Below, piece after piece: positions 19,528-23,002 of a stretch of DNA of 64,000 bases. Within the stretch, counting starts at the first letter, position 1. The number at the start of each line of letters is the position of its first letter. The notes under the pieces were generated by a model, which worked only from the letters and a program-made list of their open reading frames with translations, was not told where the DNA came from and ran no database searches. Both the position numbers and the translations under genes were made by a program. The DNA comes from Chloroflexota bacterium (GTDB lineage: Bacteria > Chloroflexota > Anaerolineae > Anaerolineales > UBA4823), in the NCBI GenBank assembly GCA_029265355.1, contig JAJUJL010000003.1, positions 1-64,000 on the forward strand, in the 5' to 3' direction.

Positions 19528-19577
19528 GCGCAGATCAATGAGGTTCAGACAAGAGTTCGGGCAATCAGGGTAAGAGT

Positions 19578-19653
19578 GTCATCGCGAGCGATAGCGAAGC
19601 GATCTCCGCCATCATCCAGGGAATTGCCACGCCCCTGCGGGGCTTGCAATGAC
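19578..19653. repeat. REP-like element, GTCATYGCGAG...GCAATGAC family
   Basis: GTCATCGCGAGCGATAGCGA, then a GCGATCTCC block, then ATTGCCACGCCCCTGCGGGGC and TTGCAATGAC form the imperfect palindrome known as dispersed 'gagattgc...gcaatgac' repeats in many genomes. Related copies are at 22434, 45596, 47487 and 53721. The rest of the gap, to 19927, has no gene I can see; no convincing promoter for the STAND gene is visible. Confidence 0.7.
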
Positions 19654-19927
19654 CCGCGAAGTGGATGTTGTCCGAACATTTGTCCGCAGGTCAGCAGACC
19701 ACCCGGTTTTGCCACCGGTCGCTGCTGAGCGCAGCGCGGCATTATGAACGGCTTCATTGCAAGCAGTTGTGAATTTGTAACTCGATTGGGGAAATCAGGA
19801 AAGGGAATAATAGGATAATTCTAGTGTAAATTGCCTAAATAGCTGGCTCATCAGTGGATACCACAGGGTGGGTCAACGTCCTGCTGGTAAAACGCAGCCT
19901 GAATGACGGCAGAAAGGTCTTGGGAGA

Positions 19928-22408
19928 ATGTCTGCAAGTGTGGCTATGCCAGCAATCCAGGTCACCGGAAACGTGGAGGGGAGCATTGTCATCGGTGACA
20001 ACAATTTTGTCGTCAACACCAACCACGGCACCATCATTTACAAACAAGCTGCGCCGCAGGTGCGCCTGCGCGAGATGTATCCCCGGCCGCCGCGCCTGCC
20101 GCGCGGCTTCGTGGGCAGAGCCAACCTGCTGGCGGTGCTGGATGAGCGCATCGCGGGGCGGGAAGCGGTGCTGGTGCATGGCGGAGCAGGCATGGGTAAG
20201 ACCAGCCTGTTAAAGAAAGCTGCCCATGCCGAAGCCGCCCAGGCGCAGATGAATGGGGTGATCTTTCTCGAAGGCATTGATCCTGAAGGGCGCTTGCTGG
20301 CGTGGGATGACCTGCTGCAGATGCTGTTCGATGCGCTGTTCGAGTCCGATCCACACCTGAAGGTCAGCGCGGCCTCGGCGCGCACGTATCTGAGCAATAC
20401 CCAACCGCTGGTGGTGTTGGATGGTTTGCAGCTCAATGCCAGCGCGCTGGAGAGCCTGACGGACCTGTTTCCGAACGCGGCGGTGGTGATCAGCTCAGAG
20501 CGAGCGACCAGCGGTGGGGTTTTCGAGGCCATCAAGCTCAAAGCGTTGTCTGCCGATGAATCGGCGCAGCTACTGGTTTCCAAAGCGGGCTGGGCGCCGG
20601 AGAGCGCCGACCGTGCCACCATTGAACAGATCTGCAGCCTGCTGGCCGGGGTGCCACTGGCGCTGACCACGGTGGGCAACCTGGCGCGGGAGTTCGAGCT
20701 GGGGCCGGATGCGGCGCTGGCTTCACTCCGGGAAGTTCACACGCAGGAGCAGGAGCCGCTGCGGGCTGCCATCCAGCGCAGTTTTTGGCTTGCCAGTCGC
20801 CACCTAGGGGAGGATGAACTGCACATGCTGGCGATGGCAGCCGCCGCGCCGGGGATGTCTGCCAGCCGTCCCTGGCTGGAGAGCGCCTCGCCGGGCGGCG
20901 AGGCCGCCAGCCAGCGCCTGGAGAATTTACAGCTCTTGCAGGCCAACAGCCCGCGGCTGCGCATTCACCCGGAGTATATCCCGTACGCGCTCGAAAAGTT
21001 CGATCCCGAGCCAATCCGTGAGAACCTGTTGCGCTGGATCATGGATCGGCTGCAGATCCAGTCGCTGGATTTCCATTTTCAGCGCGCCGAGCTGGGCACG
21101 TTGCTGGGGCTGATGCACTGGGCGACAGCCAATGAACGCTGGCAGGACGTGATTGCCCTGGGCAGGGCGGTCGATCCTTTCCTGGCGCTGAGCGGATTGT
21201 GGTCTGCCTGGCAGGGGGCGCTGGAGCAGGCGCTCGCCGCGGCCAGGTCTGGCGGCGACCTGGCCGCCGAAGCCTGGGCGCTGCATGAGCTGGGCACGCG
21301 CGCCGCCGGGCAGGGCGAGACCACCCAGGCTGTGGACCTGTTGAGGCGCGCCTTGCAGCTCCGCCAGCGCCTGGGAGATGCGCAGGGGGCTGCCTTCACC
21401 CGGCACAACCTGGAAGCGCTCAAACCGCCGCCTGGCGGCGGTGGTGGCGATGCGCGGCCTGCGCCGCAGCCCACCCCGCGAGCCCCGTCCGGAAAACGCC
21501 TCAACGCCTTGTTGCTGTTCCTGGTGGTCTTCCCGGCTTTTATCCTGGGCACGCTGACCGGCGTGTATTACGGCTGCCGCCTGGAGATCGCTCCGGTGAT
21601 CAGCGCGCTGGCTGGCGCGCTGCAACCGGAAGACGAACGCCGAGCCATTGCGCTGTTGGAGGTGAGCGTGACCCCGACCCAGGGGGTTGTGAGCGTGGCT
21701 GGGGCGCTCCAGCCATCGCCGACTGTTAACCAGACGAGCACGCCTCTACCGAGCAGCACCAGCGTGCCCACCGCCACGTCGACCGAGACGGCGCAACCCA
21801 CCAAGACGCAGCCGCCGCCCACCGCTACAACGACGGCCATGCCGAGCGAGACGCCAACACCAACTGCCGAAACAGCCGCGAACAGTCTGCTGCTCGCCAC
21901 GGTTCTGCAGCAATCTTACTGCCGCTACGGACCCGCGGCAGCCTACTTGCCTGCCGACGATCTGTTCGCCAATGACGCACTGATGCTCAATGGGCGCAAC
22001 TACTCCGCCACCTGGCTGTATGTGCAAAACGTGAAGAGCAATCGCTACTGCTGGGTGGCGGCGTCGCAGGTGCAAAGCGCCACGGATCCCATGACGCTCG
22101 GCGTGGTGCAGACATCGCTGCCGATCAACAATGAAATCTCTCAACCGACCGGCGTGCAGGCGGCGCGCGATAAAAATACTGTGGCGATTAGCTGGAACCA
22201 GGTGCACGTGAATCTGGTGGACGCCCGCGGTTACCTGCTGGAGCTGAACGTGTGCCAGAATGGCTTGCGTTTCACGACCGTGGTGCAGACCGATGCGACC
22301 AACTACGCGGTGCAGGATGAGACCACCTGCACCGGTGCGTCGAGCGGTGTGATCTACTCAGTGAGCACGCGCGGCTACACCACGCCGGTTAAGATTACCT
22401 GGCCTTGA
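19928..22408 (+). CDS. Membrane-anchored STAND/NB-ARC ATPase with N-terminal amyloid-like motif
   Basis: 826 residues in five parts. (1) 13-36: short Gly/Asn motif GNVEGSIVIGDNN (14-26), of the kind seen in amyloid or beta-solenoid signalling motifs. (2) about 58-350: NB-ARC-type NTPase with Walker A GGAGMGKT (85-92), Walker B LVVLDGL (Asp165), sensor VVISSER and GVPLAL. (3) about 360-500: TPR-like helices (LHELGTRAAGQGETTQAVDL). (4) TM helix about 525-547. (5) a Thr/Pro linker (about 595-650), an SH3b-like domain (653-717) and an FN3-like domain (738-826), presumably outside the membrane. The next gene's C terminus repeats the motif of part 1. A role in regulated cell death or defence is inference from STAND/NLR precedent. 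GGGAGA abuts the ATG. Confidence 0.85.
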   Translation: MSASVAMPAIQVTGNVEGSIVIGDNNFVVNTNHGTIIYKQAAPQVRLREMYPRPPRLPRGFVGRANLLAVLDERIAGREAVLVHGGAGMGKTSLLKKAAHAEAAQAQMNGVIFLEGIDPEGRLLAWDDLLQMLFDALFESDPHLKVSAASARTYLSNTQPLVVLDGLQLNASALESLTDLFPNAAVVISSERATSGGVFEAIKLKALSADESAQLLVSKAGWAPESADRATIEQICSLLAGVPLALTTVGNLAREFELGPDAALASLREVHTQEQEPLRAAIQRSFWLASRHLGEDELHMLAMAAAAPGMSASRPWLESASPGGEAASQRLENLQLLQANSPRLRIHPEYIPYALEKFDPEPIRENLLRWIMDRLQIQSLDFHFQRAELGTLLGLMHWATANERWQDVIALGRAVDPFLALSGLWSAWQGALEQALAAARSGGDLAAEAWALHELGTRAAGQGETTQAVDLLRRALQLRQRLGDAQGAAFTRHNLEALKPPPGGGGGDARPAPQPTPRAPSGKRLNALLLFLVVFPAFILGTLTGVYYGCRLEIAPVISALAGALQPEDERRAIALLEVSVTPTQGVVSVAGALQPSPTVNQTSTPLPSSTSVPTATSTETAQPTKTQPPPTATTTAMPSETPTPTAETAANSLLLATVLQQSYCRYGPAAAYLPADDLFANDALMLNGRNYSATWLYVQNVKSNRYCWVAASQVQSATDPMTLGVVQTSLPINNEISQPTGVQAARDKNTVAISWNQVHVNLVDARGYLLELNVCQNGLRFTTVVQTDATNYAVQDETTCTGASSGVIYSVSTRGYTTPVKITWP

Positions 22409-22537: not shown

Positions 22538-23002
22538 ATGGATCCGAACGCGATGGCTGGCGCGGCTGCCAGTTTCTTGATGCCCTACCTGGTGAAATTC
22601 GGGAAAAACCTGGCAGACCAGGCTGTGGAGAACCTGCCCGGGCAGGTGCAGAAGCTGTGGAAGATGATCCAGGCTAAGATGGAAGGCAAACCAGCGGCGC
22701 AGGGCGCGGCGCAGGAACTGGCGGAGAAACCCGACGACCCGGATAACCAGGAAGCCTTTCTGCTCCAATTGAAGAAGCTGCTCAAAGAGGACCCTGAATT
22801 CACCCAGAACCTGGAATCGCTGCTCAAGATCCTGGCGGAGTCGGAGCTGGGCAAGGATAAAGGCGTGATCAACCTGGGCAGTGGGACGGTGGCGACCGGC
22901 GGCAGCACGGCAGCCGGAGCGGGGGGCATCGCTGTGGGCGGCAACGTCGGCGGCAGCATCGTCCTGGGGAGCAACAATACGCTCAACCCGGGCGGAAAAT
23001 AA
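22538..23002 (+). CDS. Putative amyloid-motif effector, Bell-like helical domain
   Basis: A 154-residue protein. Residues 1-105 are helical: a hydrophobic, Ala-rich N terminus (MAGAAASFLMPYLVKFGKNL) followed by charged helices (QEAFLLQLKKLLKEDPEF). Residues 110-154 are Gly/Ser/Thr-rich and end with GGNVGGSIVLGSNN (134-147), matching 10 of 13 positions of the STAND protein's N-terminal motif. A helical membrane-active domain plus C-terminal amyloid motif, beside an NLR-like gene carrying the same motif, is the layout of bacterial amyloid signalling pairs (Bell-domain effectors). Function is inferred. The start is ATG 22538: GAGGAGG lies 7 nt before it, whereas the longer frame from 22499 has no support. 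Confidence 0.8.
   Translation: MDPNAMAGAAASFLMPYLVKFGKNLADQAVENLPGQVQKLWKMIQAKMEGKPAAQGAAQELAEKPDDPDNQEAFLLQLKKLLKEDPEFTQNLESLLKILAESELGKDKGVINLGSGTVATGGSTAAGAGGIAVGGNVGGSIVLGSNNTLNPGGK

Follow-up and report, generated by a model that had tools for sequence, protein, structure and literature searches.

The gene at 19928–22408 (+ strand) of the stretch of Chloroflexota DNA analyzed here, 64,000 nucleotides in length and henceforth the window, encodes an 826-residue protein that we interpret, with a probability of roughly 55%, as a single-pass transmembrane receptor of the NLR-like type, one that detects events in the envelope on the outer side and recruits a motif-matched effector on the inner side. 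The architecture of this protein, the family-wide presence of a transmembrane (TM) helix, the exchange of the outer modules and the occurrence of motif-sharing neighbors were all computed in this work. For nearly every microbial NLR, the activating signal has yet to be identified (PMC7889193). If the sensor is located outside and the NLR switch inside, bacteria would gain a surface immune receptor; moreover, an external sensor would make the trigger testable, since the ectodomain can be expressed alone for a ligand search.

The STAND core and its exchangeable ectodomains

The receptor is encoded by an uninterrupted open reading frame. Its STAND NTPase core (20087–20689, + strand), supported by Pfam, conserved alignment columns and the structural model, matches NB-ARC at 25.5 bits against a cutoff of 23.5, with homologues reaching 46 bits, and contains Walker A (G88, G90, K91, T92) and Walker B (D165) residues whose columns are invariant or near-invariant across the family. 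Toward the C-terminus lie helical, TPR-like repeats (residues 360–497; 21005–21418, + strand), which are detected by TPR_12 and TPR_10 only below threshold, form helix pairs in the model and include a W..HxxGTR anchor conserved across the family. In the full-length AlphaFold2 model, built with a 40-row alignment, the core (residues 36–497) is mostly predicted at pLDDT 90+, and structure comparison places it nearest to 6mfv (STAND-TPR), Apaf-1, NRC2, and CED-4. The product qualifies on both counts, namely as a STAND NTPase of the NB-ARC clade and as one endowed with C-terminal superstructure-forming repeats. Comparison of the receptor with the PADLOC models identified no known defense system, the P-loop matches obtained being weak throughout (E 0.003 or worse); an NCBIfam scan gave only weak or generic matches, and Rfam and repeat scans at the receptor locus returned nothing of note. 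A dispersed repeat of about 120 bp (CATCGCGAGCGATAGCGAAGCGATCTCC...) is located at 19560–19680, just upstream of the receptor gene; it matches about 42 sites genome-wide, the majority at 74–92% identity.

The C-terminal part of the protein consists of a Thr/Pro/Ser-rich stalk (residues 579–652; 21662–21883, + strand), disordered in the model and of a type present in most family members, that leads to two predicted extracytoplasmic domains, an SH3b domain (residues 653–718; 21884–22081, + strand) and an FN3 domain (residues 732–826; 22121–22405, + strand). Because a Pfam search with the window receptor alone left both domains below threshold, their identification depended on a scan of homologues and on structure. 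Among 22 homologues, SH3_3 was detected in two (best E 5.6e-5) and fn3 in one (0.015). The full-length AlphaFold2 model renders residues 656–826 as all-beta at pLDDT of about 95, and the ectodomain modeled alone reaches a mean pLDDT of 94.8. Comparison of the latter model using VIA-align aligned the SH3b part with 9a7d (YrvJ) at Z 10.7 over 68 residues and with the endolysin phiSM101 (4krt) at Z 10.2 and 1.6 A over 65 residues (model positions 5–70, that is, residues 653–718), and the FN3 part (model positions 84–178, residues 732–826), which was also matched by Foldseek, with many FN3 domains at Z of about 10–11. A sequence search of the PDB with the ectodomain profile retrieved nothing convincing. 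As judged from these models, the ectodomain meets the definitions of an SH3b fold and of an FN3 beta-sandwich. The first-pass annotation of this region (21490–22408, or residues about 521–826), which proposed a Thr/Pro linker followed by SH3b at 653–717 and FN3 at 738–826, was accurate to within a few residues, and the search that it suggested for the same C-terminal layout on other STAND proteins found SH3b+FN3 again in three loci (L103, L104, L129).

Several features of this module are of the kind associated with the exterior of the cell. The four ectodomain cysteines (665, 708, 776, and 801) are conserved, residues 1–524 hold a single cysteine, and 15 of the 17 family ectodomains that contain cysteines have an even number of them, as expected for disulfides outside the cell. 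Furthermore, the SH3b+FN3 module is found in two stand-alone proteins of the same genome (42 and 36% identity), both of which start with a lipoprotein signal (LAGC and ALAC, respectively) and a Thr/Pro stalk, and a lipobox is present in most of the SH3b+FN3 homologues from related genomes (L016 is truncated at the end of its contig; L007 and L024 are ambiguous). Such uncharacterized SH3b+FN3 lipoproteins, mostly ending in KHGY..P..IPWP, are widespread in the taxonomic order to which the window belongs (L002, L003, L007–L027).

Homologues of the receptor were sought in 396 genomes of the class, using a profile restricted to the STAND-TPR core and truncated ahead of the TM helix. The scores split into a tight group at 208–683 bits and a distant group at 143 bits or less. 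In GTDB genomes, the family is represented in Chloroflexota, in filamentous Cyanobacteria (Nostoc, Fischerella, Scytonema, and others), in one member of Armatimonadota and in two Thermoleophilaceae (Thermoleophilia), and these members again combine a TM helix with external-type tails.

Beyond the TM helix, the family members carry a broad variety of modules: SH3b+FN3 (the window, L045/L103, L104, L129); LamG+PAN (L011, L038); LysM (L014, which came from a separate search, and L050); FN3/Ig (L039, L040, L048, L051, L053); HYDIN/ASH plus CARDB (L041, L042, L044); DUF7507 (L043, L128); a PD40 propeller (L047); a beta-helix (L006); NPCBM-like sandwiches (L046 and relatives); and an FGE domain (L133). 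The PAN, LysM, HYDIN/ASH, DUF7507, PD40, and fn3 assignments were confirmed with Pfam, and those of the beta-helix, FGE, NPCBM-like, and CARDB modules come from reading the sequences. The L133 ectodomain resembles the FGE-sulfatase (CLec-like) domain, a fold in which DGRs generate diversity in other STAND systems. At least 14 changes of module class, the classes being partly assigned by eye, are implied by a 42-core tree, and the row nearest to the core of the window receptor by tree path bears a beta-helix rather than SH3b+FN3. That the outer modules are exchanged while the core stays constant suggests that selection acts on the sensing specificity.

The main rival to this reading is that the ectodomain is merely a wall tether, which pins an otherwise ordinary cytosolic NLR at the membrane while the TPR repeats sense a ligand inside the cell, for instance a phage protein. 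In favor of this view, SH3b and LysM classically serve to anchor proteins to the wall, and an ectodomain is almost absent from two members, L052 and L049, the latter of which lies at a contig edge. However, several of the folds that take the place of the module across the family (FGE, the PD40 propeller, LamG+PAN, the beta-helix) do not anchor proteins to the wall, and such replacement fits changing ligands better than it fits a simple anchor. Moreover, the TPR end is among the best-conserved parts of the core in the family alignment, the opposite of what would be anticipated for a fast-evolving ligand sensor. Thus, we consider tethering to be unlikely, albeit still to be reckoned with, and retain the interpretation of the ectodomain as the sensor.

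The N-terminal motif and motif-sharing neighbors

Near its N-terminus, the receptor contains a motif, GNVEGSIVIGDNN (residues 14–26; 19967–20005, + strand), that resembles amyloid-signaling motifs and occupies a conserved position across the family. A matching motif, GNVGGSIVLGSNN (22940–22978, + strand), is located at the C-terminus of the product of the next gene (22538–23002, + strand), a predicted helical protein of 154 amino acids with a hydrophobic N-terminal segment, which is a putative effector or adaptor as far as its sequence alone can tell. The motifs were recognized by eye and with a regular expression, and in all six frames of the 64 kb the pattern occurs only twice, at 19967 and 22940. 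A short motif on the N-terminus of an NLR and a similar one in an adjacent gene are the hallmark of the BASS/BELL systems, and by sequence this pair conforms to it; the motif-sharing neighbor is real; that the N-terminal motif is an amyloid one, that it forms amyloid and that it templates the partner are inferred.

A motif-sharing gene or an orthologue of the partner is found nearby in 10 of 21 receptor loci, so that about half lack a recognizable motif-sharing neighbor. Besides the window itself, orthologues of the window partner adjoin receptors in L100, L103, L104, and L114 (with one gene between in L114), and in L095, L109, L110, and L113 the neighbor is a different small protein, hydrophobic toward its C-terminus. 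The receptor and partner motifs are more alike within loci than when re-paired (a score as high as that observed arises in 58 of 40320 permutations, without correction for relatedness). The partner domain is an unnamed effector or adaptor domain without a Pfam model. In seven other proteins (L074, L083, L084, L088, L092, L078, L090), it precedes a NACHT or NB-ARC NTPase on the same chain, which indicates that it belongs to STAND signaling.

In one locus, a gene located directly after a TM-STAND receptor (L097:7225–8418) encodes a caspase (Peptidase_C14, 67.9 bits) in which the His and Cys segments, SGHG and LLDCCHAG, are both present. This protein carries a C-terminal motif, VDGGVSGQVGVGDGQ, and a zinc ribbon, and the L097 receptor itself has N-terminal zinc ribbons, so that both zinc ribbon and motif are common to receptor and effector. 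The presence of a caspase among the motif-sharing partners provides a link to cell death in multicellular bacteria. Next to receptors of the HYDIN/ASH type, two loci (L098:1063–3564 and L102:1194–3563) encode a conserved protein of about 800 amino acids without a Pfam match, beside which a protein-kinase-like gene is also present; this protein might be a further component. These and other neighbors lacking the motif were inspected and set aside.

The same neighborhoods bear on the possibility that the receptor responds to envelope stress or cell contact, with gene regulation or development, and not death, as the output. The occurrence of family members in filamentous Cyanobacteria and in Chloroflexota would accommodate such a role, as would the precedent of the STAND proteins of the maltose system, which are transcription regulators and one of which (8bob) is also among the fold matches of the core. 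Nevertheless, no DNA-binding domain was found with Pfam in the receptor or the scanned partners, and neither the caspase nor the fusion of the partner domain to NACHT/NB-ARC proteins is readily reconciled with a regulatory output, which we regard as rather improbable compared with killing or arrest of the cell.

The transmembrane helix and the orientation of the receptor

The TM helix (residues 525–548; 21500–21571, + strand) coincides with the sole hydropathy maximum of the receptor (residues 525–546, KD19 2.44; the next peak is at 1.67). Taken by itself, this maximum is suggestive but not decisive, because 38 of 2000 shuffles of the whole protein reach it (p about 0.02). The comparison of homologues is what makes the assignment solid: in a count that covered 20 loci of the tight group, the window included, and 11 distant ones, a TM helix was present at the same place in 20/20, even though the sequence there is not conserved, compared to 0/11 of the more distant STAND proteins, in which none follows the repeats. 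The helix was also identified in the members from Cyanobacteria, Armatimonadota, and Thermoleophilia, with a weaker hydrophobic stretch (KD 1.1–1.8) and proline-rich tails in those from Fischerella and Scytonema. In the AlphaFold2 model, the helix stands isolated between two disordered segments (residues 505–524 and 579–652), with a short helical piece after it, and is itself predicted at pLDDT of only about 50–65. An artifact, whether a helix buried in a soluble repeat and mistaken for a TM segment or a C-terminal region added by chance fusion or assembly error, is extremely improbable, since only the moderate significance of the single-sequence hydropathy leaves room for it, against the isolation of the helix in the model, its retention in 20/20 homologues and the recurrence of the SH3b+FN3 fusion in other genomes (L103, L104, L129).

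With respect to orientation, no hydrophobic signal sequence was found ahead of the STAND core, which moreover requires cytosolic ATP; hence, the core is placed on the inside. The K/R residues flanking the helix are biased in the same sense, with 113 on the N-side and 68 on the C-side across 35 members and an N-side excess in 24 of these. The initial reading of the sequence had placed a TM helix at residues 525–547, after the TPR-like region, with the NTPase and the motif inside and the C-terminal domains outside. The first of these inferences is borne out by the hydropathy peak, the 20/20 conservation and the structure prediction proposed as a check, in which the helix lies outside the soluble repeat and is not packed in it; the second is strongly supported by the isolated helix, the lack of a signal sequence, the K/R bias, the lipoprotein homologues, the external-type modules and the even cysteine counts, although the topology in vivo is inferred from computation only. 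To our knowledge, nearly all known relatives of NLRs and Apaf-1 do not cross the membrane. By the same computational evidence, the family does not fit the canonical definition of a soluble cytosolic NLR, given that all 20 close homologues possess the TM helix and most have external-type modules.

Proposed mechanism and relation to known systems

We propose that the Thr/Pro stalk presents the SH3b+FN3 module outside the cytoplasmic membrane, where it would bind or monitor wall or surface material. A change outside, such as ligand binding, clustering or loss of wall contact, would be relayed by the TM helix to the TPR-STAND core, which is inferred to exchange nucleotide and oligomerize in the manner of Apaf-1 and CED-4. 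Once clustered, the N-terminal motifs could recruit the 22538–23002 product, a small helical protein with inferred effector or adaptor activity, and template its matching motif; in relatives, this role would fall to another small helical protein or to a caspase. The likely outcome, again an inference, would be cell killing or arrest, that is, defense or colony-level control. Given that the SH3b domains of endolysins and amidases bind the cell wall, natural candidate signals for this member can be inferred to be wall fragments, wall loss or lysin attack; phage adsorption, wall damage and neighboring cells all remain possibilities for the trigger, none of them demonstrated. Thus, the gene product may be a surface-triggered cell-death or defense receptor, there being no experimental data on anti-phage protection. 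More tentatively, and with the odds slightly against us, we hypothesize that the family as a whole is the bacterial counterpart of surface pattern-recognition receptors, in which exchangeable external sensors of about ten fold types would detect phage attachment, lysin attack, wall damage or neighbors, and the NB-ARC switch would nucleate motif-matched effectors, including caspases, in multicellular bacteria.

Among the known systems, the closest parallel is with the NLR-associated bacterial amyloid signalosomes, with their BASS motifs and BELL effectors (PMC7889193, PMC8086366), which likewise couple a short motif at the N-terminus of an NLR to an adjacent small protein with a matching motif that, in BELL proteins as in the window partner, is located at the C-terminus. 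The window receptor differs in the addition of a TM helix and an exchangeable ectodomain after the repeats, a layout that we did not find in the BASS/BELL literature (PMC7889193, PMC8086366), and its motif has no BASS family assignment. Predicted external domains past a TM helix, variable C-terminal parts and often multicellular hosts are shared with the iSTAND, GAP1-N2, and EACC1 conflict systems of multicellular bacteria, components of which have wall-binding domains beyond the TM helix (PMC7159879), and with the TRADD-N systems, which include an extracellular-type CHASE2 domain (PMC8195603). In these systems, however, the external domain resides on vWA, GTPase-associated or other components and not directly on an NB-ARC STAND receptor. 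In the DGR-diversified STAND system of Thiohalocapsa PB-PSB1, the predicted location of the NACHT and CLec domains is the cytoplasm for one target and the periplasm for the other (PMC10907252); the family member L133 also appears to contain an FGE/CLec-like domain, but no single protein with the NTPase inside and the sensor outside has been described for that system. More generally, we found in the open-access literature, to which the search was confined so that absence is no proof, no STAND/NB-ARC protein combining a TM helix and an exchangeable external sensor on one chain.

The fold of the NB-ARC core is shared with Apaf-1, CED-4, and plant NRC-type NLRs (1z6t, 3lqq, 8rfh). Unlike the window receptor, all these proteins are cytosolic and lack a TM helix or an extracellular part. 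Toll-like receptors and plant receptor kinases couple external recognition via a TM segment to internal immune signaling. The logic of the window receptor is the same but the intracellular part is unrelated, so that the correspondence is one of analogy only.
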